Shown one piece after another: positions 13,303 to 64,000 of a DNA stretch of 64,000 bases; the first letter of the stretch is position 1; every line of letters starts with the position of its first letter. The notes below the pieces were generated by a model that searched no databases, was not told the origin of the DNA, and saw nothing but the letters and a program-made list of their open reading frames with translations. The position numbers and the translations under genes are program-made. This stretch comes from Stachybotrys elegans (Eukaryota; Ascomycota; Sordariomycetes; Hypocreales; Stachybotryaceae), in NCBI GenBank assembly GCA_020746835.1, contig JAGPNK010000004.1:372001-436000 (forward strand), written 5' to 3'.

Positions 13303-16300
13303 CTATCTCCTAGACGTGAAACTCTTGTCCTCCCCGAGAACAATTAGCCGATGTGCCGGCATAAAGAAGCTGAACCCAGATCGCTTTGCATCTCCAATCC
13401 ATAACAGCGTGTCCATGGTGGGAAGATCCTCCAACTCCGGGTTCGTCTTGAGTTCATGGATAAACCGCTGCCAATTCATTCGCTGGACCCCCGTATGCAG
13501 AACCTTGGCTAGGTTTCCATCTGGGTTTCCACTGAAGATAGACTCAGAAATGTCTTGAACAAGTGTGGACACAGGCATAATGTCCGCCCATCCTGCGAGG
13601 CCCTCCATTGTAGGCCGAACGCCAAGCCGCTTAGTGATGCCTACAAGCTCCTTCACCATCTGGTCGGGCTCTGGCTTCGCTAGGGTCGCCTCAGGGCCGT
13701 GGTCAGGGGTTGGCATTGGAACATGGAGCGTGACCGGGAGCTTGAACCGATTGGCTACCTCCGTGATGAACTTCTCGGATGCCCACTTCGAAGCAACGTA
13801 CCCATCCGTACCATCGTCGGGTGGCATGTTGCGGAACATGTCAGTCTTCTCTGTGTTGTAGATTTCGTGGCCCTCTCGGGTGCCACTGTAGATACGAGTC
13901 GAACCCGAGGACGCAAAGTGCATCGGTATGCGACGTGGCAGTGCAATCTTGGCGAGCTCCTTAACTGCCTCGAAATTAACAGGGCGAAGGACCTCATAGT
14001 CGTCCCAGAAGGCACGGTTGGCTCCAATGTGCAGTATCAGGTCCGCATTGTTGGAAAGGTACTCCCTCTCGCCCTGAGACAAGGCTAGGCCAGGCTCGCC
14101 CAGGTCAGCTCGGAAGACAACCACTTTTTCCGATGCCGCCTGCAGCTGTTCGGCGTCCCTCTCTGGGCGTACGAGACAGAAAAGTTTGTTGACCTTGTCT
14201 GATGCCACAAGATGGGGCACCAGGAAGCGACCGACGTAGCCAGTGGCGCCAGTCATCAGTATATTCAGCCCCGATCCTGCGTTCGGACGTGGACCCGACA
14301 GGGCATCCTCCAGAGGGAACTCTTGAATCCAGCTCTCCGGAATAGCAGTCTCAGCAGTCCAGTCGATGCGGGCTGATAGCGCCGCCATGACAACGCTCGC
14401 CATATCCCTCAACTTGGATGCCACCATGAGTTCATTCAGCCTCGGGGCAGCTTGGAACTCCTCTTTGATCATGCGCTGCAGTTGAACAAGTAAGAGAGAA
14501 CTGCCACCCACATGGAAAAAATCAGTGTCCAGATCAATGGTTCGGTCTGCCAGCGTCGGGATGATATCTCTCCACATCTGTTCGAGCGCTCTCTCCGTGG
14601 GACTCCAATCGCGGTGGGCTTGCGTGTGCTCATCCAACGAATGGCCTGCGAGATCAAGCGGCATCTCAGCGACCGCCTTTCTATCAATCTTGGCATGCGC
14701 AGTAAGCGGAAGAAAATCGACGGCAATGATGATGGATGGGCGACTGTAGCTGGGCAGCGGGAGCGTGGCCTGCAGCGCTGCGAGGAACTCCGAGCGGCCG
14801 TGTGCCGGGTGCTGCTGCGAAAAGGCGACATGGGCAGCCAGGAACTTTTCGCCATCCTGCCGCAAGGTCACCACGGCATGGGAAAGCGCGCCGTTGGAAG
14901 CCTCGACGATGGCATGCTCAACCTCGCCGATTTCGATGCGAAACCCACGGAGCTTTATCTGAGTGTCGCCATCGACACGGCCTTCGACAAATATCGAGCC
15001 ATTCGAATCGAGACGGCCACGATCACCCGTCCGGTACATGGTTGTCCATCCGTTCCGCTCAAAATTTGAGCCACGCTCCACAAAGGGGTTCTTGAGGAAC
15101 TTGGTCTTGGTGACGGCGTCGAGGTTGAGGTAGCCAGCCGTCACACCCGCGCCACCGATGAAGATCTCTCCAGGAACACCAACTGGAACCACCTGCTTCT
15201 GCTCATCCATGATGTAAATGGCATAGTTCGGGGCGGCTTTGCCAGCGGGCAAGGGAGAAGGCAAAACGTCGCTGTTGTAAGATATCTCTCCACCAGTCAC
15301 AGCACTGATGGTGCCCTCGCAAGGTCCGTAGTTGTTGACAACGCGCAGGTTTGGAATACCAAGAACCCTGAAATCGTGGATCAGCTGCTCGCTCACTGGC
15401 TCGCCGCCCAGAAGAGTGGCTCTCCAATGTTTGCACAGCGCCAAGTCTGCTCGGTTGTACTTGAACCACATTTCAAACTCCGACGGCGTGCCAGAGGCAT
15501 GTGTGATGCCCTCCTCGCGCATAATTCGCGTCAGCTCAGCAGGATCTCCTCGCTTCTCCTGTGGCACAATGTACAGACATCCGCCCGTGCAGAGAGCAAG
15601 AATCGTCTGGCAGATGGAAAAGTCAAAACTTAGGGGCGCTTGCTGTAGTACCACGGCTAGTTCGCCATCAAAGGATGCCGAGTATCCCTCGTTATGTGCG
15701 ACCAAGTTGGAATGCTTTGCCAGAATGCCCTTGGGCTCACCGGTCGAACCGCTGGTGAATAGGATTGCTGCCAGCCCCGTTGACTTTGCCAGGTTATCCG
15801 TCATGTTTGTCTGGACCGTGGGAATATCATTGACATTGATGCTGGCAATATTCGCCCCAAGCTGAGATTCCGATTCGGTAGTGGCATTGTCGACGAGCAA
15901 GATCTTTGGCTTGGCTGCTTGGACCATGGACTGAAGTCGATGGATCGAGTTGCGTAGATCCATCGGCAGATAGGTTGCGCCAATGCGGAATGCCGCAAGC
16001 ATGGAGCACGCCCATTCGGTGCTTGGCTGCTGGAAGACACCAACAACATCGCCCTCGGAAACACCAGCACCAATCATAGCCAAGGCTATATTGTTGACCC
16101 GCGAGCTCATCTCTGCGTATGTCAAGGCTCGTCCATATCCATCCTTGAGAGCTGGCTTTGACTCATGCTGCGCCACCATGGTATCGATTTGGTGAGATAT
16201 CGTCTGAGGCCACTTCAATTCTCGATCCGGGCCCTTACCAACCTGAAGCGCTCGGGAGACATCCTCGGCTGGCCAGGTTGATGGGGCTCCCAACAAAACA

Positions 16301-19300
16301 TCCTTGCTGGCGTCCGAAGTGAAGGCCTTGAGGAGGTGGATGTAAGTTCGAAGCAGCATATCAGTGTGTTCTTGAGAGTACAAGGACTGCTGGAGCTGCA
16401 ACGTAATGAGAGTGTTCCCGTCGTTGTTCTCGAGAATGTCGAGCGAGATGTCATAGCCGGTGCGTGGGTGATGCCACGCGTGGGCTTCAGCCTTGCAACC
16501 CGAAAAGGTCGCACGCTCCTGGGTTCCCTGGCGGTAATCGAGGAACACCTGGAATATGGGAGCGGCAACGCCCGTCCGATCAATTGCCAACTCCGTCAGA
16601 AGGACATCAAGCGGGACCGCAGAGTGCTCCAGACTGGAGTAGACCTTGTTGCGAGCGGATTTGATTGACGTGCTGAACTTGGACTTTGCCGAAGGTCTGT
16701 CGAAGCGCACAGTCAACAGATTCAGGAACATGCCCACCGTTCCGGCAAAGTCAAGGTCGGAGCGATTGGCATCGGCCATTCCTATGAAGATTTCGGTCGT
16801 GTTGGGGAGCAGGCGAAACAAAAGGGCCTGGAGAACCGCCATGTAGACATGGAAGTTGGTGCTCTGATTCGCCCTGGCAAGCTGCTTGATGGTGGCGGTA
16901 GCAGCAGCTCCCAGGCGGATGTCGGACCGGTAACATCTTTTTCAGTGTCAGTGTGCCTGCATAATTCATCAATAGAAATGGAAGATGGGCTTACCCGTAG
17001 GATTCCTGAGGCTTGCGAGTAGCAACCTTGGAGAACGGTAGGAGCTCCATGGGCTGGAGGCTGGGTGGGATCATCTTGCGATAAAAGTCAATGTCGTTCT
17101 TGAATTTCCCTTCCTGGTGGAGGCGGTATTGCATCGCGGAATATGTACGGTACTGCGACGATTCAAGAAGAGGCTCCAGAGTATGTCCCATGTACGCCTT
17201 TTCTAGATCATCCCAGATGAGCTGGATGCTAACGCCGTCGTGGGTGATGTGATGGCTACCAAACAGAAGCCAGTGGATGTCATCCGAGAGCGAGAGGAGC
17301 ATGAATCTGAATGATTCACCACTGCCTAGATCCCACTCATAGGTGCGTAGTTCGTCGAGTGCGCCCTGAACCTGGTCCTCATGGTCGATGAGGCGGTGTT
17401 CCAGTCGAACGAGTGAGTGAGCCATGATGCCTTGCGTGGGTATGTCGTTGTTCTCGCCGGACCAAAAGTACCTTGTGCGCATGGCTTCTTGCTTATAAGC
17501 AACTGTCGAGAGGGCCTGGCCAAGTCTGTCAACATCCAAACGACCCGCCAGCTTGATGGATAGAGCCACGTTAAATGTACTCTTATCGGCCAAAGCATGT
17601 GAGAGAAACCAGAAGCGGGTGTGGGCGAAAGACATACGTTCCGTGACCTCGTCCCTGGTGTACTCCATGTCCTTGGACTCGGGTGTCGCGTTACCGCTTG
17701 GGCTGGTTGCCATGGACGATTCCCTCTCCGAGCTGACTGCTCCGCTGAAGATGGATGTGTTTTCAGAGTTATTTCCTTGCGACATCTCACTGGTGGACAG
17801 TAGAGCAAGCTTTGTTGCCAGCTCGTCTTGTGGGATGCCGTCGCTCGCCGCAGTGTTAAAGGTCGGGATCGCCTCGGATGATGCTGTCACTCCATCACCA
17901 GATCCTGCCTCGTCAGTGCTCAAAGTGCTCACGTCGAGAACAGAGGGTGGAATCTTGCCCATGCAGTCAGAAATGTGGTCTGCGATGGTTGAGCTGCCCA
18001 AGATCTTGATGACAGGCATGTCGACCTCTAACTCGCGGACGAACCAGGCTCGGATCTCAAGGGCGACAAGCGAGTCAACACCGTGTTGAACCAGTGTTTG
18101 CGAGGGGTGTATTTCATCCGTTTCTGGCATGTGGAGGACCTTCTTGACCCTTGCGGTAAACAGATCTGCGTACGCGTTAGTGGGATTTCTTCTTTCCGTC
18201 ACGATTGGGAGTTACAAACCTGTCAACGCCCTCTGGGCCTGTGCAATACTCTTGACACCCTTGAGTTGAGCTCGGACTGATACAGCTGCACCAAATGCTG
18301 CCTGGTCCAGATTCTTGGACTCTTCAATCGTCATGTGCCCAAACTTGAGGTCCTTTCGGTACGGCACAACGGTGGCTTCGAGCTCGCGCGTGCTAAACGG
18401 GGTCATGCCCGTCACAATTTCTGCCTCCTCGGAAGAAGATGGCAGACCAGAGCTGATGGCCTCAGCGAACATGGTATGAAGATCCGACTCTGAGACGCTG
18501 GTCGCACCGAGGCTTTTGAAGTAGTCAGTGTCAAAGGTCTCGGATCTGCCGACATGACCAATTCCCATCAGGGAGCTGAGGTCAATCACAGAGCCTGGCA
18601 CGCCTCGACTGCGACGCTGATAGGCGAGACTGGTCATGTACATGTTGGCGGCCGCGTAGTTGCTCTGGCCACTGTTTCCTAGACACGCGGTAAGGGAGGA
18701 GAACATGATGAAAAATTCCAGGGGCGCGTCGTAAAAGAACTCATCAAGAAGCCTGCTGCCGTCCACCTTGGGGCGAAGCACACTGATCATTTGATCCAGA
18801 GTCATGTCTTCGAACGGAGAGTCAGCAAGGATCAGAGCACCATGCGCTACACCTCCAATCTCGGGCATGCTCCGCTTAATGGTATCAAGACACCTCTTGA
18901 GCGAGTCTCGGCTGGTTATGTCGAGGGGCATTGCGCGGACATCAGCTCCGTGGTTGGCGAGATCGTATGTGAAGTCGGGATCAACCTGGGGCTTGCGGCT
19001 TGTCAACACGACATGTCTTGCTCCGTGCTTCACCATCCAGGAACACAATGACTGTCCGACTTCACCAGACAGTCCCACGAGGAGATATGTCCTGTCTGGT
19101 CGGAACACATTGCCGTGGTCTATTGGTCGCACACGCACTGGGACACTCGTGGCTGTCCAGTCGAGAATAGTCAACTTTGTATGGTCGCTGCTCTCCTTTG
19201 TGATCTGGGCTAGCTCGACCTTGTTGAACGCTTCAATGGATATGCTACTAGTCGAGGCATGCTTCCAAGCAGCCTGGAGCTCACTTGCCGCATCCTCAAC

Positions 19301-22300
19301 CGAAGCACTGGGTCTGACATACAAGTGCTTGCTCAAGAAGTCGCCCCCCTTGAGACTGGCCGCATAAGGGGGAAGAAGACTGCTAATGTTCCTGGCAACA
19401 ACTGAGCTCGGAGTGTTGGCTGCAGAGAAGTCGACAAACACAGACACGGTGTCCTGAATCAGGTTCCTTAGCTCACGGAGAGGAGCATCGGGGTGTACAA
19501 AGGTTGCGTCAGTGGTCTGTCTTTCCTGTTGACTGGTGACGAAGGAGACCTCAACCCCGGCCTTTTGGGCTTGCGAAGTGATGGCTGACTTCAATACCTG
19601 GTCACATTCATGGACCAGCAGAGAACCACCCTTGCCAATGCGTGCCATGATTTGGCGCCCGATCAAATGAGCTGCCACCGAGATCAAGGCAACCGTCCCC
19701 ATCTCTCCCGAGTCGGGGATGCTAATTGCACAGGCCTCATGAATCACTGCTGGAGACTCTGCGGCGTCGACAAGCGCCAGAACTGCTTCCTCTCCATCTG
19801 TCTTTCCAACAGCAAGCATCAGGCTACCCACGCCGGAGATATTAACATATTGAGCCAGTGACTGTTGAATGCGGATAGAGCTATTGACTTCTGCAAGCTT
19901 CGCGCACCTCGCTGTCTTCTCAAGAGCTGTTACCTCCTCAAGAACTGTCGAATCTCCAGATGCCACGAGACGAAGACTAGTAGACTTTGGATCCACGTCT
20001 TTTGTAATTGACCGCTTGTAAGAGTTGACCCGCGAGTTTTGCACGTCATTCGGATACAGGCGTGGCACATACAACTTGCCCTTTTGGAGGAAGACCTCGG
20101 GTTCTGCCGACCACATCAAGTCTTCTGCCTCGCCGTTTCGCTGGTAGTGGTCCAGGATCTGGTGCTGCAAAAGAGCGCGGCTGATGAAATCGCCACTGTC
20201 CTTGTTGAGAGTATCAATGTCAAGGAATTGGAGATTGACGTTGGGATGCTCGAATTTCACCACTCGACCGATACCGTAAATCATGTACGAGTACGGCTCC
20301 TCCGCACGAGCTCCCTTGGTGACCCAGATGATGTTCCTGCCATTGCTCCAAAGGGACTTGAGGCCTTGCATCTTCTCCTCGGTAACATTTTTCATGAATG
20401 GCTCGTCAAGCTCAGTCAAGCTGAGGACTGTGCAGCCAGGTGTGGCGGTAGAAGAAAGAGCCTGAATCGAGGCAAGGTGATCCATACGACTGAACTTGGA
20501 CTTCAGCGTTGAAACAATCTGTTTGGTGATTGCATGGGCAACAAGAGATTTGCCCCCGACAATGATGAGGTGAGACAGGCTCTCCGAAACTGCTGAAGGG
20601 AGTGCTGAGGTTGGGTTTCTCAAAGTGACGACCCGATCGTCGAGCGCCTGGGTAGCCCAAACAGCAACAGCGTGCAAAGAGTCATAGATGGGCGTCGACG
20701 TCTCCAGCGGCGCAAACCCGCATCTCTGAACCAGGGAGTCCCACGCATCGAGCGTAAGCATAGGACCATGAGGACGGCCGCTGTGTGCTGCAATCCACCA
20801 GCCAGGCAAACCACCCATGATGATGCCATTACGCAGCATATCGTTTGTGACGGTCTCGAGGTTGACGAGATATCCTCCAGGCTTCAGCAGCCAACGCACG
20901 TTGGAGATGACTTTGTCGAGGTCTTCAGCCACATGGAGCACGTTGGAGGCCACAATGAGATCGTAAGTGCTTTGTTCAAATCGCTGGTTCTTTGGATGCT
21001 TGGACATGTCGAATACCTTGAAATCCATTCGATGGGCATAGTCCTGGAACTTGCTCTTGGCAGCCTCAAAGAACCCACTCGATACGTCGGTGTACGTATA
21101 TGAGGAGAACGACGTCCCGAGCATGGGCAAGATAGCTTGCGTGGATCCTCCAGTGCCTGCACCAACCTCGAGCACCTTCATATGAGGGTATCGGTGGCTG
21201 ATCTGCTTTGCCATCTTGGCAATCCACCAGTTTGCAACTCGCAGACCAATACCTTCCTCATAGAAACGGTTAAGAAGACCATCCTTGGTCATATGCTCGA
21301 GAATGCTGGCCTGTGCACGGATGGTGGACGGCAGGTTTTGACCAGTCGACTCAATAATGAGTGCATCTACTCGATTGCGATGCTTATCAGTGAGAGCTAG
21401 GATGGATTTCTCGTCGTCTTGGAGACACTCAGTGTCCACAAATGAGTGTGTTCCGCTGCGGACCTTGTCAACGGTGTATCTTGCCCACGCAATCAAGCTT
21501 TTGTGGTGGTCAAGCGCATTGTCGCAGTCTTCTTGGGGCATCTCAGCCACCTTGCGGAGGTAGTAGAAGGCTATCCTTTCCATGTCCCTGGCGACCTTGA
21601 GCTCTTCGGTGCTTAGTTTATCGCCCTGAGCAGCCAGCTCTCCGTCGGGTACCACGCCCAAGTACTTGAAGTTGGAGAAGAGGGTCACATCGTCTCGTGC
21701 AGTGGCTGGTGTGAGCGGCTTCAGGCTGACGCCTTGAATCTGGATGAAAGTGTGCTCAGAATCTTCAGAGAGAAGAGCGAGATCAGCCATGATGAAACCC
21801 TTGGCCTCGTCACGGACAACAGTTTCCCATGGAATCTTGGCAGGTCCTTTTTCGCCAGACTGGCAGAAATAAGGGTTGACAATGAGGGACTTGATGGTGA
21901 CGGGGACGTGCAGAGAGCGAAGACTCTCATCGCCAGGATAGCTGAATGCCGCGAAGAGAGTTTGCAATGCCGTGTCAAGGACTCCTGGGTGCACGACGAG
22001 CTTGTCCTCCCATTCTGAGTTTGACTGATCCTCGAGAAGACCCGTGGCATAGCCATGCCTTCGCTGGATGGACGTGATACCCTGGAATGGTTGCGAGTAC
22101 TGATAGCCAATCTTCGCCAATGTTGAATAGAAGCGGTCCACGCCAACGTCAATGAGGTTGAACTTGTTGGTGCTCGTGGAACTGCAAGGCAATCCAGTTG
22201 TGGATGGCTTACCCAACGTTATCTCCACGGCACCATTGGCATTGGCGGTTAGGGAGCGTTCACCCTCAGCACACGAGTAGCACCCAAACGTTGCCACGAT

Positions 22301-25300
22301 ACGAGTCTTGCTAGACTCCTGAATATTGATGTTGAAGATGGTCTCAACACCGGCATTGTCATCCGGGAAGGTAATGGCCCGTTCCAGGACCAGATCATGG
22401 ATGTGATATTGAGCAACATCCGACTCAGCAGCCAGGCTGTGCATAGCTTCGAGAACCATAGCCACGTACCCAGTGGCAGGGAAGACGATCTGGTCCTGCA
22501 GTCTATGCCCAGACATCCAGGATATCTCCTTGGGCCGAAGCAGGTTTCTCCACTGAATCTCTCGAGTTGTTGAGGCCAGTGCATTGCGCATACCCAGAAC
22601 AGGATTGGGAGATTCCTTCGACTGTCTCTGCGCGGCAGAAACACGGGACTCAAACCAGTATGAGTTTTGGTGGTTGAACGGATATTTGGGGAGATCGCCT
22701 ATGACGTTGCGTGGGCTGTCGTCGCCGTGGAACAACCTGTCAAAGTCACCAAAATCCACGGAGCCAGCTCCCAGATTGGCCCACACAAAACCAAGTCCCG
22801 TTGAGAGTTGTAGTACGTCGTTCTTTCCACGAGCAAGGAGGCCTGTATAAGGAGGGCTGATGCCACACTCACTCATAACATCCATGGCAGGCCCTTTGAG
22901 TGCAGGATGAGGACCGATCTCGATGACCAAATTGTAGGAGCCCATAGCAGAAGCAGCGGCTATGACAGCAGAGGAGAAGAGAACTGGATTGACCATGTTG
23001 TCAACCCAGTATTCAATGTCAAGCAGGTCTGGCGTCATGAGAGTCCCGGCTGAGACGCTGGACCACCATTCAGGACCATCTTCGGAAGTACGTGCTGCAA
23101 TGCCACACGCTCGAAGCGACTCGCGATAAGCAGCAGCGCACGGCTGCATGTGACGAGAATGGTAAGCGGTATCGACCTTGAGCAGGCGGGCAAATTTGCC
23201 TTTAGCTTTCAGCAACTCTACCGCCGCTTCAATAGCGTCTTTGTCGCCAGACAGTGTCACACTGGAAGACGAGTTTTGGGCAGCGACAGAAATTCGTCCA
23301 GCAAACTCATCACGACTGCAGAGCTGGGCGGCCTCCTCAGCCGAGAGACCTGTGGCAGCCATGGCACCGCTGCCTCCGCTGGGTGAAGCGGCAAGTTTGG
23401 CATGAAGACCGCGGTAGTAGGCAACACGGATGGCATCGCCGGCAGAAAGCAGACCAGCTGCATATGCTGCTCCAATTTCACCCGAAGAGTGGCCTACCAC
23501 GGCCTGAAGCTGGACGTCGGCCGCCTTGAGCATCTCCACCAATACAATCTGCACGGCTGTGCATAGAGGCTGAGATAGCGCTGCCTCCCCGATACGAGAG
23601 GATGAAGCATCAGCAAGCAGTTCTTGGCGAAGAGACCACTTGGGACGATCCTCCTCCGGCAGAGATGCTAGGGAGTCTTCCAGATGTGTGATGATCTTTT
23701 GGGCGAGGATTGACGATTCCAACAGCGCAGCACCCATTCGTGGCCACTGCGCGCCTTGGCCAGTGAAGATTCCCAGAATAGTAGGCTCACCAACGTTACC
23801 AAACCTCATATCGTTGCTGGACGATTCCTCATCCTCCAGTTCCATCTTGATACTCTTGCAGATATCAGCAGCCGTGAGACCTGCGAATGCCTTTCGGTAA
23901 GGCAGAGTCGACCGGCGGTGCTGCAATGTCCACGCTAGGTCTCTGAGAGGAACATCCGGGTTTTGGAGGAGGAAATTCAGGTGATCGGTCATTGTTGCCT
24001 TTAAAGATCCAGTCGAGTTGGCGGACAGGACTATCGGCGTGACAAGGGACGACGGGGTTGATTGTGCCCCATCCGACTGTTCCTTGACCGTCAATCCAGG
24101 CACATAAGCCTCCAGAATTGCATGCGCATTCGTTCCACCAAACCCAAAGCTGTTGATGCTGGCGCGGCGAACGGCACCGCTCAGCGGTTCGGGCCAAGGT
24201 GTGGCAACCACTGGGACATTGAGATGAGAATAGAAGGGGATAATATCCGGGTTGAGGTTCTGGAAGAGGAGGTTCGGGGGTATCGTGGCATTGCGGAGGG
24301 CGAGCGATGTTCCAATCAGACTCGCCAATCCAGCAGTACCCTCAGTATGGCCGATGATGGTCTTGATAGACCCAACATGGAGCTTATCCTTTTGATCTCC
24401 CATGCCTCGGAAGAAGGCGTTGTGAATAGCCTCGGCTTCTTGGGGGTCACCAGCCTTGGTACCCGTGCCGTGGGCATGGAAGAACTGAGGACGGTCCGAT
24501 GCCTTGGTCAGGTCCAGCCCGGCTCTGGCATATGTGTCCCGGATGAGGTTGGTCTGGGCCACATTACTAGGCACGGTTATGCCAGACGTATGGCCATCTT
24601 GGTTGACCCCAGTCTCGCGGATGATGCACTCGATGCGATCGCCATCGGCGAGAGCCTGGCTAAGCGTCTTGAGGACGACAGATGCCACGCCCTCGCCACG
24701 AGCATATCCATCTGCGGAGGCATCCCACATTCGCGAACGTCCTGTCGGTGACAGCATTCTGAGGTTGCTTTCGGCAACATACTGGCCTGTCAAGAAGTTA
24801 GTTGTCTAATGACTGACGGAATATGAATGGCAAGAACAGAGAGGCGGACCTGGAGACAGGATAAGATTCGTGCCAGCAGCAATTGCTACAGTAGACTCGT
24901 GACTTCGCAGAACTCTCACTGCTTCGTGAACAGCCACCAAGCTCGACGAACACGCCGTGTCTATTGTCATAGACGGACCGTGCCAGTCAAAGAAGTATGA
25001 TAGTCGGTTGGACACAATGCTTCGTGCAGTACCAGTGCCAGCATACATTGGGAGCGCGTCGGTGTCCTTCTGCACCATAGACGACCAGTCATCACACATC
25101 ATGCCAACATAGACAGCAGTCTTGCTTCCCTGGAGATCTTCCATCGGCAAACCTGCAGCACAGAGGGAGTCGTAGACTGTCTCCATGAGCAGCCTCTGCT
25201 GAGGATCGATGCTCTCGGCCTCTTTGGGAGGGATGTTGAAGAAACTGGCATCGAATCTTGCCAGATCTTCATCCAGCAGATACGAGTGCTGAACATTGGT

Positions 25301-25501
25301 GGTGCCGTGATGTGTGGGATCGGTGTGGTAGAAGGCATCAATGTTGAATCGTTCCGGGGGGATTCTTTTCAGAACGTCCCGCGGAGCCTTCAGGAGATCC
25401 CATAGCTTGGACGGGGTGTTGCAGCCACCTGGAAAGCGGCATGCAGTTCCCACAACAGCTATGGGCTCCGAGGCAGTTGCCTGGCGAGATTCAGATGTCA
25501 T
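13303..25501 (-). CDS. Hybrid PKS-NRPS (KS-AT-DH-MT-ER0-KR-ACP-C-A-T-R)
   Basis: Four exons, 25501-24850, 24786-18220, 18165-16995 and 16936-13303 (introns of 54-63 bp), join in frame to 4007 residues, normal for fungal iterative PKS-NRPS. Landmarks: KS DTACSSS (Cys about 184) with HAHGTGT and [16 protein letters not shown] (Ser about 649); [13 protein letters not shown] (about 977); C-methyltransferase [10 protein letters not shown] (about 1426). An ER-sized region follows with no nucleotide-binding glycine motif. Then [10 protein letters not shown] (about 2119) with its Tyr in GQSNYAA, and ACP GVDSLVA (about 2438). NRPS half: C domain HHITHDG (about 2708); A domain [10 protein letters not shown] (about 3189), with FDFS keeping the Asp for the alpha-amino group and AKIDRKA keeping the A10 Lys; T domain GGSSLLL (about 3609); R domain TGATGYVG with YVASK (about 3694-3843). 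It should build a methylated polyketide amide of one amino acid and release it reductively. The amino acid cannot be read safely. Confidence 0.96.
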
Positions 25502-49396: not shown

Positions 49397-49927
49397 GATG
49401 GGGTATGTTGAATGGTGAATGAATGATGATGATGGTGAAGGAGAAGTTGAGTGGCAGCCGATATTCCTTTATCTTGTCATGTCCTTGAGCTCCTCAGCTA
49501 TATGCACCATGATTGTCTGGATATAGTCGACAATCCTACCCGCACATCAAGCTGCCCAAGCCGATGTTCCCTCTTCCGTTCGGCTTACTTCTCGGACACT
49601 CGGCTTACCTGCGACTCGCGTCAGAACAATGCCCGAGTTCTAGTCGCAGTTTCCATTTTTGACAGACGGACAAATCGGAAGACTGGACGATGGACGGAGA
49701 CTTAAAATGGTGGTCAATCGGACACTTGCCGAAAGTGCTCGCACCCTAACCAAGTTGGGCTGGACCCTGCGGCTGTTGCGAAGCCCTGTAATTCCGTAAG
49801 TATGACTTGTAGACAGGGCAGATCAGCTGTGATTTGGAGGCTTTGAGGAATAGACGACAATTGATTGACATCTTCAACCAACAACAACAGCAGCAATACC
49901 CACAATCTCTCAAACATCATCATCATC
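49397..49927. promoter_or_regulatory. Shared promoter of HR-PKS and acyltransferase
   Basis: 531 bp between two divergent ATGs. The octamer TCGGACAC occurs at 49592-49599 and 49718-49725; the second lies inside a TCGG-N7-CCGA dyad (49718-49732). A CAT/CAAC-rich 5' leader precedes the acyltransferase ATG. Such a short shared promoter should co-express both genes. Confidence 0.55.
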
Positions 49928-51394
49928 ATGCAGAGAAACTTCACTTTTAGTCCGGTGGACGAGATCATGCCACACATGTGGATGACAGTCCTGCTCTGTT
50001 TCCCCTGTCTGGACGAGCGCAAACAGGATGTGGTCGAGTGTCTCCAAAAGGCACTCACCATGATGGTGAAAGAGCGTCCGTTTCTTGCCGGTACCTTGGA
50101 GAAGACAACAGCCGAAGGTGCTGGAAGAAAGGGGAGCCTGTCACTCAAGCTTCCTGAATCAGTCGACGCGTTATCAGGCGCGCTGGTCAAGGTCAATGAC
50201 TTGACGGACCCGGAAAGCGGCTGGAGCGATTCCTATGAAGAGTTGCGCAAGGCCAACTTCCCGCCCAGCAAGCTGGATGGTAGCAAGCTCTCGCCAGTCG
50301 CGTATGGTGTCAGCTCGGAGACGAACAGAGTTCTAGAGACCCAGGCAAACTTTATCAAGGGCGGCTGCATCTTAGCCATCAGCACGTGCCATGCCTTTGT
50401 CGACGGCTGGGGATACACCCTCATCCTGCAAGAATGGGCCAGGTGCTGCCGCGCCGTGCAGAGCGGGACTCCCGACGTGCCGGGCGAAGCAGCCGCCACG
50501 GAGGACGACTCCCGGCCCCCTGGTCTGTTTGTCGAAGCCACTAGCGAGGACTACGAGAATCTCAAGAGCCGCCAAGAGCTCTGGGGACTACTGGGGCTGG
50601 ACTGGAGGCGACATGTCAAGACCGATGGAGACGCAGAGGGTGTGCAGGTCTCTCAGCCCTACCACGACCACGCGGTAGCATGCTCATCCCTGTGGACCAT
50701 CTCACCCGAGGCCATCGCCAAGCTCAAGGTTCTGGCAAATCAGAAACCGGAGAACGGGTGGGCTTCGAGCCAAGATGCGGTCCTGGCGATGCTGTGGAGA
50801 GCCATCACCAGGGCTCGTGCGCCGGGCTGGACCGCGGAGCAACTTCAAGGCAGCTCCATGGTCTCGGTTGCCATTGACGGGCGCCGTCACCTCACACCCC
50901 CTGTGCCTCCCAGCCACGTGGGCAATGTTGTATTCTGCTGCCTCACGTGGCAGCCTGTCTCTCGGCTGCTGGTGGCGCCAGAGGACGAGGAGAATGCCCT
51001 GGCTCAAGTTGCATGTGACGTTCGCAAGTCGATTCTGGCCAAAGGGCGCAATAAGCCCATGCTCACGGACGCTTTGCGGCTTGCTGCGAGCATCCCCGAC
51101 CTCACCGTTGACTTTGGCAATGCCTTCACTTCTTGGCTGGGCACTGATCTGGCGACATCGGCAGTCTGGGACCTGCCGGTTTATCATCTTGACTTTGGAG
51201 GAATATTCGGCTTAGGAGACGGAAAGCCAGAGTACTTTAGGTTTCCTCGAGGCCAGTTCGATGGTCTTTGTCTCATGCACCCAAAGCAGGTTAACGGGGC
51301 TGTGGACGTTGCCATTACGCTATTCCCTGAAGAGATGGACAGGCTGAGGAACGACACTGTTTTTACTTCCTACGTGAAGTTTCTCGCAGAATAG
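49928..51394 (+). CDS. BAHD-type acyltransferase
   Basis: A single intron-free frame of 488 residues. The catalytic HxxxD motif is CHAFVDGWG (His about 155, Asp about 159). The second family signature appears late as LDFGGIFGLGDG, equivalent to DFGWG. The two-lobed CAT-like fold is supported by length and motif spacing. Members move acyl groups from CoA or carrier-protein thioesters onto alcohols or amines in the cytosol. Trichothecene 3-O-acetyltransferase-like proteins are the fungal relatives. Its head-to-head position with a PKS that lacks a thioesterase suggests it takes the polyketide chain from the ACP, or its CoA ester, and esterifies a hydroxyl of the terpene or another core. That is inference; a simple acetyltransferase is the alternative. 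Confidence 0.9.
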   Translation: MQRNFTFSPVDEIMPHMWMTVLLCFPCLDERKQDVVECLQKALTMMVKERPFLAGTLEKTTAEGAGRKGSLSLKLPESVDALSGALVKVNDLTDPESGWSDSYEELRKANFPPSKLDGSKLSPVAYGVSSETNRVLETQANFIKGGCILAISTCHAFVDGWGYTLILQEWARCCRAVQSGTPDVPGEAAATEDDSRPPGLFVEATSEDYENLKSRQELWGLLGLDWRRHVKTDGDAEGVQVSQPYHDHAVACSSLWTISPEAIAKLKVLANQKPENGWASSQDAVLAMLWRAITRARAPGWTAEQLQGSSMVSVAIDGRRHLTPPVPPSHVGNVVFCCLTWQPVSRLLVAPEDEENALAQVACDVRKSILAKGRNKPMLTDALRLAASIPDLTVDFGNAFTSWLGTDLATSAVWDLPVYHLDFGGIFGLGDGKPEYFRFPRGQFDGLCLMHPKQVNGAVDVAITLFPEEMDRLRNDTVFTSYVKFLAE

Positions 51395-51824
51395 ATAGCT
51401 AGTATTATTTAACGTACGGAATAAATGGAGAATTCATTGTGATAGACAAGTTTATCGCGTGGTGATGGGACAGAACATAGTACTTTACATTCAATTTCTG
51501 GGCGCTCCCCTACTCGCATCGCAGTTCTGATACCGTCCCTGTAAAGACTTAGCCAAGCGTGTGCTGCTTTCTGGCTCTACGATCTCCTGCAGAAGTGGCA
51601 ATGATCCGCTCCGAACCGCACACCTACCTATTCGGGCTTTCTCCTTTCGACAGCTGTATTGCGAATTATCAATCCATCTATTCGGAATCCACCCGCTTGG
51701 TCATCCCCTGCCCTTCCAAAACTGGTAGATATCAGACAACACTTTAACCACTGATCCATCTCCCATCCACACTTGGCGATTCAAGAAAGCACAGTGTTTT
51801 TTGCGCAAGGGCCAACAGTATACA
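51395..51824. other. Intergenic spacer, acyltransferase to P450
   Basis: 430 bp holding the acyltransferase 3' UTR and the promoter of the next P450. An 11-base word (CCTATTCGGGC) near 51630 is the reverse complement of part of dispersed-repeat copy B, too short to call a copy. Confidence 0.4.
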
Positions 51825-53595
51825 ATGTTGGAGACAGTACACGTGGGTGAACACCAGCTTACAGCCATCGCCGGAGTCGCGGGCGCTCTTCTGGCGTGGC
51901 GTTTGGTCCAATATGTTTCCCAGAACCGCAAGCCTCGTCGACTTGACGGCATCTACGTAGCCGGTACAAACAATGGACAGCGCACCGATAAAGAAACCAG
52001 AGAGTATTTCATCCAGCATTGCGACGAGTTGATGCTGGAAGGGTATTCCAAGGTTGGACGTCCCGTCGACTTAATCAAGCACATTGGACTAATCGCGACC
52101 GTCGCAGACAAAGGGAGGGTTCTTCTATCTGCCTACGCCTTCGGGCGATAGGCTTATGCTGCCTACCAAGTACATGGAAGAGCTGAAAAATTCGGCCGAT
52201 GAACTGGTAGATTTCAACGGGAGCTTCCTGGAGGCAAGTATTGTTGATTCATTCTGTCGTCGTGATCAGGAACTAATGGCGGTATTAGATGTTCTCGGGA
52301 AAACAAACCACGATTGGAATCAAGTGGCATCTCCACCCCGCAGTCGTCAAGAGGGACTTGAACGCAAGTCTTGGTTAGTCCATTCGATCCTCCCACGGAT
52401 GTAAGCTGCTAAATTCTTCTCTTGCTTTCAGCGCAAATCATGCCGGCGGTGGAAGACGAGGTGTTCCATGCGTTCAAGGAACTCTTGCCTCAAGGGAATG
52501 GTAAGTCAAAACCCGAGGGTAATGACCATGCACTTACCAGAGCCATGACGAAGACTGGGCACCCATCTGCCCCGCAGACACCTTTACTCAGATTATTTCT
52601 CGGGCATCTAACCGTATGCTGGGCGGCAAGGCGTTAAGCCGAAACGCTGAATGGACTGCAACTTCAATTGACTTTACAACGGATACTTGGCTTGCATCTC
52701 AGCGCCTGAAGGAGTTCCCTGCTGTCACAAGGTCCTTGGTAAAGCACTTTATTCCCGAGATGTCTCGAGTTTACCGTCATCAGGAGGTGGCCCGGAAGGT
52801 AATCTGTCCTCTGGTTCGGCAGCGATTGCAAAATCCGGAAAAGCCACACTTGGACCTGCTCCAGATGCTGTGGGATGCGGCATCCGGGGAGGACAAGACG
52901 CCCGAGTTTATGGCGTATACGGGACTAGTCGTAAGTTTTGCGGCCATTCGGACCAGTTCGTCGGTTCCTGTGCACCTGGTGTACGACTTGTGTGCCAGGC
53001 CCGAATATCTCGAGCCTCTGAGGGAAGAAATCGGCACCATGCTGGAGCAGGAGAATGGCCACTATACCAAGGCAGGCCTGGCACGATTGGTGAAGCTTGA
53101 CAGCTTCATGAAGGAATCCCAGAGATTCAATCCGCTGAGCTTCTGTAAGCGTTGTCTGACTGACATCGTGAACCAGCTAACTCTCGGCCGTTAGTGACTT
53201 TTGGACGATTGATAAACCGGGACCTGACGCTGCACGACGGCTTTGTGATTCCTGGTGGCACCATGATCGGTATACCAGCATACGCCATCAGTCAGGACCC
53301 GGAACTGTTTCCGTCGCCGTCAACGTTTGACGGGTTCCGCCACGTGGGTGGTAGTGCGCAGTTTGTCACGACAAATGCAGCCAACCTTAGCTGGGGCTAT
53401 GGAAAGCACGCGTGCTCGGGGCGGTTCTTTGCCGCATCTGAGATTAAGCTCATGGTGGCACATTTTATCATGACCTACGACTTTAAGCTGTCTACTCCGG
53501 GTATTACAAGGCCAGCCAACATAGCTTATGAGCTGCAGAACATGGCCGACCCATCTGTGCAGATCATGGTTCGCCCGAGACAGTCCATGATATAA
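51825..53595 (+). CDS. Cytochrome P450, ent-kaurene-oxidase/PaxP-like
   Basis: Six exons, 51825-52052, 52108-52233, 52289-52373, 52432-52500, 52554-53144 and 53195-53595, give 499 residues. The second intron (52234-52288) has a GC donor (GAG|GCAAGT) with a normal AG end; all others are GT-AG. Landmarks: an N-terminal anchor; FFYLPTPSGDRLMLP; GKQTTIGIKWHLHP; an I-helix of the FAAIRTSS type; the ExxR helix KESQRFNP; and the haem loop WGYGKHACSGRFFA. The I-helix and the H-A-C-x-G-R-F-F pattern are shared with gibberellin and indole-diterpene P450s, which oxidise terpene methyl or methylene positions at the ER. With a terpene synthase 11 kb away, a terpene substrate is a reasonable inference. Confidence 0.92.
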
Positions 53596-55271: not shown

Positions 55272-56242
55272 ATGGCTGTAAAGACCAAGACTGCGCTGGT
55301 GACGGGCAGCAGCGAGGGAGGCCTCGGCTTCGCCATCGCCAAGGAGTTCCAGGCGCGAGGCGTGCACGTCTTCGCGACGGCCCGCTCGCCTTCCAAGGTC
55401 CAGGCTCTTGCGAGCCTGCCCAATGTGACGGTGCTCCCCTTGGACGTCACCTCCGAGACGTCCATCCAGGAGGCTGTCAAGGCTGTGGCGGCCCAGACTG
55501 GCGGCACGCTTGACTACCTCGTCAACAACGCTGGCAACCAGTATGTCATGCCGACCATTGACTTGGACATTGAGGTTGCCAAGCAAATGTACGAGGTCAA
55601 CGTCTGGGGCGTGGTTGCTGTCATCAAAGCCTTTGCGCCCCTGGTCATCGAGGCCAAGGGCACCATTGCCAACCTCGCCTCCATCTCTGGTCTCGTCAGG
55701 CCTCCATACATGGGTACGACATCCCCTCAGTTGCTCCATATGTGCATGACGGCTAATCCTTGATTTTCCCTGCTTTCTAGGTGTGTATGCTGGCTCCAAG
55801 TCTGCCTGCGAGGCCATTAGCGAGGCTCTCCGCTATGAGCTGGCTCCCTTTGGTGTCAAGGTCCTGACCGTCATCGTCGGCGCCATCAAGACCAACATCT
55901 TCACCAACGGGCCCGGCTATGAGCTGCCTCGCGGTTCAAGGTACGAGGCGGCGCGCAAGGAAATCTCGGACCGCATCGCTGGCCGTGATGTCGAGTCCCG
56001 CCTTGGCAAACCCGAAGACTTTGCCAAGAAGCTGGTGGGAGACATCATTGGAGGCAGCACCGGCACCGTAGCCCGTGGTAATATGTCGAGCTTTATCCGC
56101 TTTGCCACTTCCTTCTTTCCTTCTTTCCTCATTGTAAGTTAAGAGAAAGCTCCAAGACCATGTCTGAAAGAACCCACTAACACGACTGCTGTAGGACTCC
56201 ATGGTAACGGGCAACACTGGACTCAACCTGGTTGGAAAGTAG
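55272..56242 (+). CDS. Short-chain dehydrogenase/reductase, Ayr1-like
   Basis: Exons 55272-55713, 55781-56133 and 56195-56242 (introns of 67 and 61 bp) give 280 residues. Classical SDR motifs: cofactor loop VTGSSEGGLGFA, DVTSE, NNAG, the catalytic Ser region ANLASISGL, and YAGSKSA with Tyr and Lys; the second intron falls near the C-terminus. A late hydrophobic stretch (FIRFATSFFPSFLI) suggests membrane contact. The pattern resembles 1-acyldihydroxyacetone-phosphate reductases (Ayr1) that reduce keto lipids with NADPH. In metabolite clusters, members reduce ketones on terpene or polyketide cores. It lies between two cluster P450s and the regulator, so a tailoring role is plausible; a lipid-metabolism role is the alternative. 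Confidence 0.88.
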
Positions 56243-56643: not shown

Positions 56644-58119
56644 TCATGGCATTAGCTGCATCCCAGCAATCTGCTCCGACAAATTCTGCACGGCAGCCAG
56701 CACTGCCTCGAGCCGCATGGTCTGGCTACCAGTGGAAGATCGCTCCTTGACACGGCCAACCGCTTGCGCAAGCGACTGCAGCTGCATGGATAGTAAGAGA
56801 CGTAGGACACTGTGCCACTCGTGCCGATCCATGGCGAACCGTCCACAAAACACGCCCTGGCCAAGATCTGCCGGCAGACCCATGTTGATCGGCGAGAGCG
56901 TCTGCGGCTGTGGCTGATTCGGCGAGTCTGGCCGCGATGCATGGCCCATGCTACCCGAAGACCCCAGTTGTTGCTCCCCCACTAATTTCTCGTCGAGGAT
57001 CATGGTCGACTCCGAGAAGCCAAATAGCCGGATCGCCGCCTGGAGCCGCTGTACGAGCTTCTCGTACACAACAATCAAGAGGGATAGGTGCTCTGCCGGA
57101 GTGGTGCATCTGATGCACTGGTGGATGGTGCTCGACTGCGAGATGCTCTGTTTTATCGAGGCGAGCATCAGGTCGAGGTCCTTGTACATCAGCGCATCCT
57201 CGACGGGCTCCAGAAGCATGACAATGCGCCGCAAGCAGTCACACTGAGCTCCGGTAGCTGTGGAGACGGTTGGCAGGTGGCTCTCAGACGATGCGTCTTC
57301 ATGCATCTGCAGTTCTGGGGCAATGGTCATTGCCCACTCGCCAAGCGGCATGTCGCTACTGGAGGGCGTGTTGAAGCCAAACGTTGCGCTGTGGTACAGA
57401 AAGTCCATCAGGCCCGAAGGGTCAGATGTACTGATTGGGTCCATTTTGTCCATGACCATGTCCATGTCGGGAGGGACATCGTGGCTGTCATCGGGGAAGA
57501 GGATGGGGGCATTGCTATTCATGCACTCTGAGTCTAGGCTTATAGGCGATGGCTGTGAAATGATTTGCGAGTTGTTGCGAGTCCTAGGACGCGACTTGCT
57601 CGTGCTTGCCTTTGACCTACTCTTCCGCTCTGTGTCGGCGCCGACTGTGATGGCGGCCGATGCAGAGTCGGCATCCGCTGAGGCGGACGATCTCGAGTGG
57701 CGTTTCCTCTCCACATCTGTGCCCGAGTCCGAGCTCCTCGTCTCGGATGATGCTGCTGATGATGATGATGCTGCGGCTGCTTGCTTGCGTTGGCGGCCCG
57801 ACTCGGACTGGGAACCAGCCGACCTGCTGCTCGAGGCGACAGACGAGTAGGTGCACGTCTTGCCGCGGCTCACGCATCGGTCACAGCCTGAGCGCCGAGC
57901 GGAGCATCCCAGCTAATACGGAAAGAAGAGAGTCAACAAACAAAATTCCGCAATACGATACGAGAAAGCAGCATTGGAAGTGGAATCCCCCCACACCTTT
58001 GATGCGCGGCACTGGTCGCAGGCCGAGTGCTTGAGGCCGGCGTCTGTCAGAAAGCCCTCAGTCTGGTTGATGAACTCGGAACTATTATTATGCCGGTTTA
58101 GTCGAAGAGTGCCGTACAT
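56644..58119 (-). CDS. AflR-type Zn2Cys6 transcription factor
   Basis: Exons 58119-57997 and 57912-56644 (84-bp intron inside the zinc cluster) give 463 residues. Joining them gives CDQCRASKLGC followed by GCDRCVSRGKTC, a complete Zn2Cys6 cluster. A Ser/Arg-rich linker with basic patches (likely nuclear localisation) follows. The C-terminal half has the AflR-family region: CDCLRRIVMLLEP, conserved Cys residues around IHQCIRC, and a late GRFAMDRHEWHSVLRLL block. AflR-type proteins bind paired sites and activate metabolite clusters, so this is the best candidate pathway activator here. Its own promoter carries a perfect 9-bp dyad of CCGTAT/ATACGG half-sites, which would fit autoregulation. It is divergent from a P450. 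Confidence 0.92.
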
Positions 58120-58786: not shown

Positions 58787-58787
58787 C

Positions 58788-58820
58788 GAGCGAGGATAGA
58801 GCGAGGATAGAGCGAGAATA
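58788..58820. repeat. Three tandem 11-bp units
   Basis: GAGCGAGGATA twice and GAGCGAGAATA once, directly adjacent to the inverted repeat. Confidence 0.85.
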
Positions 58821-59564: not shown

Positions 59565-61328
59565 ATGTTCTCCTACGACGGCAACGCCGTCCTCTGGATC
59601 GTTGTTCCCGCTGCGCTCCTCTCCATCTACTTGGCGTTCGCCACCCGCTCCTCTCCGGAAGATCCCCCAGAAGTCCCAGCCCAGTTGCCCATCCCCTATC
59701 TGGGCCACACCATTGGCCTGCTCCGGAACCACATCGGATACTACCCCATCCTCAGGTACGTTCATTTCGTCTCGAGAGCCGATGCAGGCGCCACCCGCCC
59801 CAAGTCGATCCCGCCCATGGCTCTGACAAGTCCCACCCGCCTTGTAGCAAGAGGCACCGCAAGCCCGTCTTTGCCGTCTCGCACCTTGCAGGCAAGATCT
59901 ACGTGGTAGACAAACCAGAGGTGGCGTTGGCGATTCTTAGGAATACCAAGGAGGTTTCATTTGCTGAACTTGCTGCTTCGGTTGTGCTGCGCATCTCGCT
60001 GTCCAGCAATGAGGCAAGGAAAACGGTCCTCAAGGACGTCTCCGGCCCAGGCCGCAAGGGCTCTGACAACTACACGCCTGACATCTTTAAGAATGTGCAT
60101 GCCACACTGGCACCCAGCACGGGACTGGAGAGTATGGTTTCTATTGCTTGCTTATACATTGCACGAGAGGCCCCCCTCCTTGGTCCCCTTGATGGACAGC
60201 CATTCAAAGAGTTGGACCTGTGGACTACAGTCCGTCATTTCATTGTACAAGCCACGGCAGAGGCAGTCTACGGGCCCATGAATCCCTTCCGCGACCAGGA
60301 AACCGAGGATGGCTATTGGTAAGTCACCGCCACTGCAAGTTTCAGGGGCGATGCCTAACACGTGTTTTCTCAAGGCACTTTGAGGAATCATTTACCCACC
60401 TTCTCACCAACGTGCTACCCAGCATCACGGCTAGAAAGGGTCACTACGGAAGGGAGCGCGTGCGCAAAGCCTTTGAAAAGTATTTCGCGCAAGGAGGTCA
60501 TTTGAAAGGATCAACCCTCATCAAGTCGCGCCATGATGTCGCTGTGCGTCACGGCCTGTCCCTGATAGACATGGCACGGCTGGAAACGACCATGGCTATT
60601 GGGGTCTTGAGCAACACGCCTCCGTCGGCGTTTTGGATGGTGAGTGTCCGTCCCTGCCCGATGCCGATGCCTGATGCTGATCCACATCCACCCAGATCTT
60701 CTACATCTTTTCAAACCCACAACTATTGCATGACCTCCGCAAGGAAATGGATCCCCTCGTTTCCACCACCACTAGCGGCGACAAGGATCCTCACAGGGTC
60801 ATTGATGTCTCCCGCGTCCGCAAATCAAGCCTTGTAAGCTCCATCTGGAACGAGACTCTCCGCCATGCTGGCTGCGGCACTTCAGCTCGGATCGTCGAGA
60901 CAGACTGCCGCGTAGAGGTGGGAGAGGAGCGATACCTGTTCCGCAAAGGCAACGTCATACAACTCCCCAGCCACACCGTCCAGACCAATGATAGGTTCTG
61001 GGGTGAAAACATCAAGGAGTTTGACGGAGCCCGCTTTTGCGGTGAGCAGGAGACGGGCATTAGGAAGGCTGGTGTCTTCCGGCCGTTTGGCGGTGGTGCC
61101 ACCTTGTGCCCAGGAAGGCATCTGTCGGCTGCCGAGAACACCGTCATGGCGGTTGTCGTAGCGCTGAGTTATGAGATGGAGCCTGTCTCTGGTACCTGGG
61201 AGGAGCCGGAGAAGTGGACACCCAGCATGGCATCTGCCGTGTACTGGCCAACCAAGGGTGTCAACGTCAAAGTCCGCAGACGCCAGGGCTTTGAGAAGGG
61301 CACTTGGGAGTTTACTGGCATGGCTTAA
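59565..61328 (+). CDS. Cytochrome P450, CYP7/8-like
   Basis: Exons 59565-59755, 59848-60318, 60375-60639 and 60696-61328 (introns of 92, 56 and 56 bp) give 519 residues. An N-terminal anchor (VLWIVVPAALLSIYLAF) and the proline hinge IPYLGHTIGLL are followed by VFAVSHLAGKIYVV. The I-helix is atypical: NTPPSAFWM replaces the usual AGxxT, as in the CYP7/CYP8 group. Then come WNETLR for ExxR and the haem loop FRPFGGGATLCPGRHLS. This group includes fungal homologues of sterol 7-alpha-hydroxylase and prostacyclin synthase and often carries out isomerisation or hydroxylation in terpenoid pathways. It is divergent from the AflR-type gene, so co-regulation is likely. The substrate is unknown. Confidence 0.92.
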
Positions 61329-62280: not shown

Positions 62281-63272
62281 TCATGCTTGAACAGCATCTG
62301 CTACTGGTGAAATACCAGGTCGGATGTCCGTCAAGATTTGCTGGAATGCCGTCTTCTCCTTGTTGAAAGCACCAAACCAATCTCCTCGCAACCTCGACAG
62401 TGGCTCTTCAATCTCGGTCCAGTGGTCTCCCAATGTCAAGATGCATCGCCCGTTCCAACGTCCCGGTGACTTCACCGCTTCCGGCGTGTCGCGACCATAA
62501 CCCTCGACCTGGTTCTCCTGCTGCGCCACGGCCGAGTGCACAACGGCCAGTCCAACATGGTGAGCACTGCTGACTGGTGCACCCGCGTCCATGATGGGCT
62601 TCGCGAGGTTCGCGGGGAGCAGGCTGGTTATGGTAGCTGCAGGGGCGACGATGTTGATGGTAGCACCGTAAAAAGGCTCCATGCGTGGGCGCAGCGCCCG
62701 CATCAGACCCACGAGCCCCAGCTTGCTTGCGCTGTAGACAGGCAGACTAATCTCGGGTGAGTAGGCCGTGGCGCTGCTAACAATTACCAAGCTGCCTCCA
62801 GGTCCCTGGCGCTTGAAGCTGCTGAGCGACAGTTTGGTAAAGTTGAGAACCGCGCGGAAGTTCACGTCCACCACTCGCCATGTCGGCTCCTCGAGGAGAC
62901 CGTCGGTACTGGAGAAGGTGTCGGCGAAGTAGTCAGTCTCTTCAGATACACCAGCATTGGCGATGGCAATATCGACGTGGCCGATCTGGGAGAAGGCTGC
63001 CGAAAGCGAAGGCCAGTCGGCAACATTGCAATGCATGTAGTTGATCCCAGACGAAACCTCTTCGATGGGGCTGTTGAGATCCAGCACATGGACGCGTGCA
63101 CCGAGCGAAGCCAAGATCTTGGCCGAGGCCAGCCCAATTCCAGATGAACCCCCTGTACCCTTTTGATAAGCGAGCTATGTTTAGCAACATGGTGGATATA
63201 CTGACCAGTGATGATGGCAACCTTTCCATCCAACCTGGGGAAATCTTCTGGGACGATGTTAAGGCTAGTCAT
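62281..63272 (-). CDS. Short-chain dehydrogenase/reductase
   Basis: Exons 63272-63206 and 63152-62281 (53-bp intron) give 312 residues. The intron splits the cofactor loop; joining gives IITGGSSGIGLASA. Then LDLNSP, an Asn-Ala-Gly (ANAGVSEE), the catalytic Ser in VSSATAYS, and YSASKLG with Tyr and Lys. The acidic residue after beta-2 suggests NAD rather than NADP. The sequence resembles 15-hydroxyprostaglandin-dehydrogenase-like SDRs, which oxidise secondary alcohols. The start at 63272 is chosen because the next upstream ATG would add 40 residues without family character. It sits between two cluster P450s, so alcohol-to-ketone tailoring is the likely role. Confidence 0.9.
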
Positions 63273-63455
63273 TTTGGGCACAACTGCTTGATTTCTTCTG
63301 ACGGTGGCTAAGATGCTGCTTAGAGAGGTATGTTCTGAATTCCAGTGTGTGCTCAGCTTGCTCCTTAAAACTACTTGAGAGGCATGACGCATAAGCTACG
63401 GAGACTTGCCCAACTTGGGATCCTGTTACGATCGGGCTGATACACACGCCGGCTC

Positions 63456-64000
63456 CTACATTTCCGCCAGCCGATCCCGGGTGATGCGCACGAAAAGATC
63501 GGGCTTCTTCCACAACAAGTGCATCTGCGAGTCGCGAAGCCAGTCCACTTCGGTGTTGACGAGCTCCATGTCGTAGCGATAGTGCAGCTTCGCCAGAGTT
63601 GTGCGCATCTCGAGCCAAGCCAGTCTGTATTGGCCAAAATGGTCAGCAATAATTACTCGCATACTTTTTTTTCTTGAAGCGGTACTCACGCTCTGCCTAG
63701 GCAGTTTCTTGGACCAAAAGAGAATGGCTGCGAAGCCTCGAGACGGTCTTCTCCAATACCGCCCGTGTTCTCTTCAAGCCACCGCGAGGGGTCGAATTTG
63801 AGGGGGTCGGCGAAATTGGCTGAATTCAGGCTGGCAGCCAGAGGATTAACCGAAACAATTGTCTAAATATCATTTACCAGTTAGCCGCAGATTCTCCCAA
63901 TATTGTAGAATGGTCGAGACTTACACCGCCGGGTATCTGGTGTCCGTCAACCGAGCCTCCTTGCACGGGCACAACTCGTGGCAATCCAAGCGGCAGCGGG
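63456..64000 (-). CDS. Cytochrome P450, C-terminal part (cut by window edge)
   Basis: Three visible exons: 64000-63925, 63862-63690 and 63624-63456 (introns of 62 and 65 bp). They encode the end of a P450: GHQIPGGTIVSVNPLAASL, the FDPSRW motif, the haem loop FSFGPRNCLGR, and LAWLEMRTTLAKL of the L-helix, ending VRITRDRLAEM. The haem Cys is intact. The N-terminal three quarters, with anchor and I-helix, lie beyond the right edge. The pattern resembles the fungal CYP65-like families common in metabolite clusters, so the cluster probably continues to the right. Confidence 0.9.

Follow-up and report, generated by a model that had tools for sequence, protein, structure and literature searches.

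We infer that the biosynthetic genes between 13 and 77 kb of a Stachybotrys elegans locus probably form two clusters side by side, one built around a PKS-NRPS and the other of eremophilane-ester type, and thus two separate pathways rather than one three-part assembly line. Pathway A would occupy 13.3–38.7 kb and pathway B 41.2–77.1 kb, the latter reaching 13 kb beyond the window, i.e. the whole 64,000-nt stretch of DNA that was analysed (C34:372001-436000; genome of 43.4 Mb in 61 contigs). The split is drawn because the PKS-NRPS and dehydrogenase of pathway A recur in Fusarium and the scaffold pairing of pathway B is published. Between the two lies a terpene synthase (TPS1) that is an extra beyond either pathway's account. 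Read this way, two clusters with no apparent relation to each other would lie end to end at this locus, and S. elegans, a hypocrealean mycoparasite, would carry genes of the eremophilane-ester type.

Genes were predicted with a small model trained on S. elegans sequence and named by Pfam, the scan covering predicted genes and open frames only; several P450 models are partial. The TPS1, PKS-NRPS and HR-PKS proteins are all deposited for S. elegans. Features are given in window coordinates, with the basis of each call in brackets:

10551..11995, minus strand: GH76 glycoside hydrolase (PF03663, E 6.6e-121)
13303..25501, minus strand: PKS-NRPS, KS-AT-DH-MT-KR-(ACP)-C-A-T-R (exons 25501-24850, 24786-18220, 18165-16995 and 16936-13303)
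26655..28313, minus strand: cytochrome P450 (PF00067)
29016..30366, plus strand: Zn alcohol dehydrogenase (PF08240, PF00107; tblastn)
31080..32458, minus strand: FAD monooxygenase (PF01494; PDB flavin monooxygenases)
33449..34427, plus strand: putative SAM methyltransferase (by eye; weak PDB match 5wp5, E 0.019)
34841..36794, plus strand: berberine-bridge-type flavoenzyme, start approximate (PF01565, PF08031)
37274..38715, minus strand: cytochrome P450 (PF00067)
39861..41036, plus strand: TPS1, class I terpene synthase (PF19086; exons 39861-40068, 40134-40308, 40375-40657 and 40716-41036)
41243..49396, minus strand: HR-PKS in eight exons, KS-AT-DH-MT-ER-KR-ACP (Pfam)
49707..51394, plus strand: acyltransferase, trichothecene 3-O-acetyltransferase-like (PF02458, PF22664; PDB 2zba, E 2.1e-18)
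51729..53595, plus strand: cytochrome P450, gene model uncertain (PF00067)
55272..56242, plus strand: short-chain dehydrogenase, SDR (PF00106)
56644..58119, minus strand: putative Zn2Cys6 regulator, model uncertain (Cys pattern by eye)
59565..61328, plus strand: cytochrome P450 (PF00067)
62281..63360, minus strand: short-chain dehydrogenase, start approximate (PF00106)
63460..64000, minus strand: cytochrome P450, continuing past the window to 65363, boundary with the SDR approximate (PF00067, E 9.9e-64)
75950-77133 (C34:447950-449133): second terpene synthase, aristolochene synthase (PDB search)
79952-81688, after the aristolochene synthase: copper monooxygenase with a DOMON domain (Pfam)

Within 13.3–64 kb, Pfam recognises a ~4000-residue PKS-NRPS, the soluble class I TPS1 and an HR-PKS. 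Eleven tailoring genes with a Pfam match lie between 26 and 64 kb, namely five P450s (at 26.7, 37.3, 51.7 and 59.6 kb, plus the end of a fifth, partial in the window, from 63.5 kb), the Zn alcohol dehydrogenase, the FAD monooxygenase, the berberine-bridge-type flavoenzyme, the acyltransferase and two SDRs. The putative methyltransferase (33449..34427) and the putative regulator (56644..58119), the latter recognised by eye from its zinc-cluster pattern, are without a Pfam match. Among the predicted genes and open frames scanned, no housekeeping family occurred in 13.3–64 kb. The first-pass annotation, which had described three scaffold enzymes and at least ten tailoring genes with no housekeeping gene between them, is borne out in this respect, as is its description of the cyclase as a soluble class I enzyme (PF19086 match, motifs intact in TPS1). 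Its confinement of the locus to 13303..64000 was too narrow: the run of biosynthetic genes, unbroken across 13–77 kb among the genes scanned, passes the window end at 64000 and takes in the aristolochene synthase at 75950-77133.

On the left, the GH76 gene (10551-11995), the first one leftward with no obvious part to play in a cluster of this kind, is the likely border of the PKS-NRPS cluster. Farther left, 1650-9829 carries genes for a carboxylesterase, an MFS transporter, a class III aminotransferase and a Zn2Cys6 regulator; these may make up a separate small cluster or belong to the PKS-NRPS cluster. The wider region C34:129957-493486 is rich in PKSs, with ketoacyl synthase matches at ~130, 181, 276, 397, 420 and 493 kb, those at 397 and 420 kb being the window's own. 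Titles and abstract openings of the literature on S. elegans gene clusters did not announce the locus.

Exons 1 and 2 of the PKS-NRPS encode the KS, AT, DH, MT and KR domains, and exon 4 the second half of C followed by A, T and the reductase (Pfam). Exon 3 (16995-18165) is covered by the precomputed Pfam list of the deposited protein, in which the carrier and condensation domains appear as expected. Our model (4007 aa) differs from the deposited one (3984 aa) solely by a 23-residue gap. No ER was matched by Pfam in exons 1, 2 and 4. A Tyr-x3-Lys motif in the R domain is the criterion for reductive as opposed to Dieckmann release. This motif is present in the S. elegans enzyme and in 15 of 16 aligned relatives, the remaining one (P0109) being a gene model without the stretch, and its retention makes release of an aldehyde likely.

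The PKS-NRPS had 668 matches; bacterial NRPSs are numerous among the 120 listed, from which 16 fungal sequences were aligned. Three are full-length Fusarium proteins, from Fusarium sp. NRRL 66182, F. lateritium and Fusarium sp. VM40, with 71.3, 71.9 and 72.2% identity over 3792, 3968 and 3959 positions, respectively; the next-best of the 16 is 59% identical. The adenylation-pocket stretches DFSICQ and ATLLGGE are common to the S. elegans enzyme and these three, and differ in the other 13. Two of the three Fusarium gene models are headed by a dehydrogenase 71–76% identical to the product of 29016-30354 (tblastn), while the third (P0111) is not joined to one. The joined models (P0109 and P0110) probably reflect an annotation merger of neighbouring genes, and hence a conserved neighbour, and are evidence of adjacency provided that gene calling did not go astray in some other way; in S. 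elegans, a P450 gene sits between the two.

This recurrence, together with the lack of any Fusarium name among 107 TPS1 relatives (two without a name) or among the 120 listed of 1403 HR-PKS matches (~38 rows without an organism name), suggests that the PKS-NRPS half probably also exists without the terpene and HR-PKS genes of S. elegans. That the Fusarium PKS-NRPS genes would lack neighbouring terpene genes is read from protein lists (120 of 668 and 120 of 1403 matches listed). We therefore do not follow the first-pass annotation in treating its three named enzymes as one functional locus, given the Fusarium recurrence of the PKS-NRPS and dehydrogenase in two models and a second candidate terpene partner for the HR-PKS. 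One of its two alternatives, that all three carbon sources converge on one product, is set aside as the leading reading on the same Fusarium evidence. That all three, or four, scaffold enzymes build a single hybrid molecule seems very improbable to us: physical proximity is what speaks for it, against which stand the occurrence of the PKS-NRPS–dehydrogenase pair in Fusarium, where no TPS1 relative is named, the simpler role that the sole acyltransferase has with the HR-PKS, and the predicted release of the PKS-NRPS chain as an aldehyde.

In pathway A, whose chemical steps, like those of pathway B, we infer from gene content, the iterative PKS-NRPS would assemble a C-methylated, unsaturated chain and join it to one amino acid. 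The chain is drawn as unsaturated because the synthase shows no ER and no enoyl-reductase partner was recognised among its neighbours. The reductase domain, with its Tyr-x3-Lys, would then release the aldehyde, on which, or on a later product, the Zn alcohol dehydrogenase probably acts, and P450s and flavoenzymes would tailor the product. The dehydrogenase was considered as a trans enoyl reductase and rejected, as by eye it carries GHE and Cys-rich zinc-type motifs, which speak against such a role. Past the window, a predicted flavin monooxygenase at 97669-99132 resembles, by eye, the one at 31080-32458.

Pathway B extends beyond the window. The second terpene synthase matches the aristolochene synthases in PDB with E values from 3.2e-133 (best match 1dgp, residues 3-299 of 300 aligned) to 1.1e-127, the next family following at 4.2e-14, and is by sequence a clear aristolochene synthase. 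It lies 12 kb past the window edge and ~26 kb from the HR-PKS, as the last gene of a run in which P450s, an SDR, a transporter and a flavoenzyme precede it (63–75 kb: P450s, MFS transporter and FAD flavoenzyme by Pfam). An aristolochene-type cyclase, HR-PKS, acyltransferase, P450 and SDR are thus found in one gene run, which also includes TPS1. This gene outside the window changes the reading of the right half, and illustrates that a scaffold pairing judged at a window edge can match a PKS with the wrong terpene synthase. To the right of the copper monooxygenase, genes resemble ankyrin and NACHT proteins, by eye.

The HR-PKS model (2584 aa) is identical to the deposited protein. Among the 120 matches listed of 1403, the nearest relatives are ~50% identical, and squalestatin tetraketide synthases are 42–43% identical; the presence of the latter suggests a short branched chain as the product. 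Divergently from the HR-PKS gene lies that of the acyltransferase (49707..51394), with an HxxxD motif by eye. According to pathway B, farnesyl diphosphate would be cyclised by the aristolochene synthase and the resulting bicyclic eremophilane oxidised by P450s, SDRs and the flavoenzyme. The HR-PKS would supply an acyl chain that is short, methyl-branched and reduced, and esterification of this chain onto a hydroxyl would fall to the TRI101-like acyltransferase, comparable to what has been proposed for the polyketide esters of eremoxylarins.

TPS1 complicates this picture. Its final model (328 aa) equals the deposited protein and retains DEHSD and NDVVSYARE; PDB and protein searches used a 350-aa form as the query. 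With that query, the top PDB match was a Delta6-protoilludene synthase (E 1.1e-56), and 107 relatives were retrieved, of which 46 entered the tree. There, nine further ascomycete rows form a group with TPS1 (support 82/95), nested in a broader assemblage that also contains basidiomycete enzymes; the branch of TPS1 is long, at 2.2 changes per column, and this leaves its place unsure. A single clade of all 11 ascomycete rows was rejected (p 0.0003), a Hirsutella row being placed among basidiomycetes. A transfer of TPS1, as hinted by its nearness to basidiomycete enzymes, is not claimed here, in view of the ascomycete grouping and the long branch. We regard TPS1 as a divergent member of the protoilludene-synthase-type clade, its placement by sequence being unsure, and for that reason do not assign the product of those synthases to it. 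Its third-position GC (0.50) is the lowest of the genes measured, and this together with the long branch suggests that TPS1 may have arrived late or may be weakly constrained. In the genome, PF19086 gave 13 exon-level matches, two of which are TPS1 (C34:412154) and the aristolochene synthase (C34:448687), with no others on C34.

TPS1 and the HR-PKS are encoded by adjacent convergent genes with 206 bp between them, which, beside the ~26 kb to the aristolochene synthase, speaks against the preferred reading. This closeness and the intact motifs of TPS1 would fit a functional partnership in which the two make an acylated sesquiterpene of another skeleton, leaving the aristolochene synthase to a third, deoxyphomenone-like cluster at 62–77 kb. 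The classes of gene given for the deoxyphomenone (DPH) cluster in the available part of PMC11980549, namely a cyclase, an SDR, three P450s and an MFS transporter, are indeed present in that interval. We nevertheless consider this arrangement rather unlikely, since the pairing of an HR-PKS with an aristolochene-type cyclase is already published (PMC10686045; PMC8403587, the latter in the text available) and TPS1 combines its branch length of 2.2 with a third-position GC of 0.50.

A division into two pathways would be compatible with common regulation. Two or three pathways with separate products could be governed by one shared regulator, e.g. the putative Zn2Cys6 protein at 56.6–58.1 kb, and yield a joint cocktail. 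Such a functional supercluster is a tentative proposal, well below even chances; it draws on the unbroken biosynthetic run at 13–77 kb among the genes scanned, on the single divergent promoter region (38716-39860) between the halves, and on Metarhizium robertsii, where three clusters stand under one embedded regulator (PMC9600275, available portion). Weakly against it, a promoter dyad scan compared with shuffles revealed no motif common to both halves. The strongest dyad, CAA-N8-TTG, a palindrome that the scan counts twice, had seven sites in the HR-PKS/TPS1 promoter set (0.95 expected by shuffles, P 6e-5 in one test among many; ~2.3 at the rate found over the entire 144 kb) vs. two in the PKS-NRPS set and one in the far right. 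These seven lie in 38716-39860, 49397-49893, 54300-55271 and 58120-59564, a set that includes the region shared with the left half, and the dyad is possibly a right-half regulator motif rather than a shared one. Of the 13 promoter regions, two contain the AflR-type TCG-N5-CGA, and these two belong to the right half. Shared control of both halves is possible.

Base composition differs between the halves, with a mean third-position GC of 0.60 in pathway A (7 gene models) and 0.66 in pathway B (11; Mann–Whitney p 0.004). This evidence is weak because the groups were defined with the gene list already in view; they leave out TPS1 and include one B model merging an SDR and a P450. The mean of 12 flanking gene models (0.64) falls between the two, so that the difference says little about origin.

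A bolder version, which we rate as quite unlikely, would have the locus act as a supercluster for mycoparasitism under common regulation, with one acyltransferase loading one HR-PKS chain onto two sesquiterpene skeletons, the eremophilane and that of TPS1, alongside a product derived from the PKS-NRPS aldehyde. The related deoxyphomenone acts in mycoparasitism carried out by another fungus, according to the available part of PMC11980549. For S. elegans itself, PMC4413796 lists trichothecenes and atranones as metabolites, with no word beginning eremophil in the portion of its text at hand, and eremoxylarins are merely mentioned in the accessible part of PMC13293291.

Two abutting pathways remain the preferred reading when the locus is set beside known systems. 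The PKS-NRPS half resembles the Fusarium group (F. lateritium, NRRL 66182 and VM40) in its 71–72% full-length identity, both adenylation-pocket motifs and the dehydrogenase joined in two of three models, and differs in that no Fusarium name occurs among TPS1 relatives or the HR-PKS relatives listed. TPS1, with intact motifs, is tentatively placed among the Delta6-protoilludene synthases (PDB 8h72 from Dendrothele; Armillaria Pro1, which we take to be one of them), yet is ~40% identical, on a long branch and in an ascomycete subclade.

The fumagillin–pseurotin supercluster, invoked by the first-pass annotation as precedent for interleaved pathways, is a fair parallel for the layout, in that a PKS-NRPS cluster adjoins a terpene cluster, which in A. 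fumigatus involves an ester of HR-PKS origin. The interleaving itself seems not to carry over, the S. elegans genes apparently standing in two blocks, and the cyclase of that supercluster is a membrane UbiA-type enzyme vs. a soluble class I enzyme here. A three-cluster supercluster with one regulator is also described for Metarhizium, with blended pseurotin/ovalicin (PMC9600275, in the part available). The amm polyketide route to eremophilanes of Trichoderma virens and S. chartarum, with a prenyltransferase and no terpene synthase in the text available, is of a different kind (PMC9430172) and was discarded as a model.

Closest to pathway B are two aristolochene-type systems. In the putative eremoxylarin cluster of Xylaria hypoxylon, redox enzymes accompany a terpene cyclase and a PKS, the PKS being "most likely responsible" for the polyketides esterified at O-1, and one P450 and one SDR are common to four aristolochene-derived pathways (PMC10686045). 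In the available text of PMC8403587, an Annulohypoxylon truncatum cluster holds an hrPKS, an aristolochene-synthase-like cyclase, two acyltransferases, three P450s and oxidoreductases, with the warning that adjoining clusters may look like one. Both share with S. elegans an aristolochene-type cyclase and a PKS with P450s and an SDR, acyltransferases being named for A. truncatum, a likeness at the level of gene classes (acyl transferase and FAD enzyme are unspecified in the cluster text of PMC10686045). As far as the available A. truncatum text goes, S. elegans differs from them by adding the protoilludene-type TPS1 beside the HR-PKS and the abutting PKS-NRPS cluster. The DPH cluster of Hansfordia pulvinata, also a mycoparasite, likewise combines a sesquiterpene cyclase, an SDR, three P450s and an MFS transporter; its cyclase, SDR and one P450 gene are induced during mycoparasitism, and its gene list, as far as the text at hand gives it, is without an HR-PKS, whereas the S. 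elegans run has one (PMC11980549).
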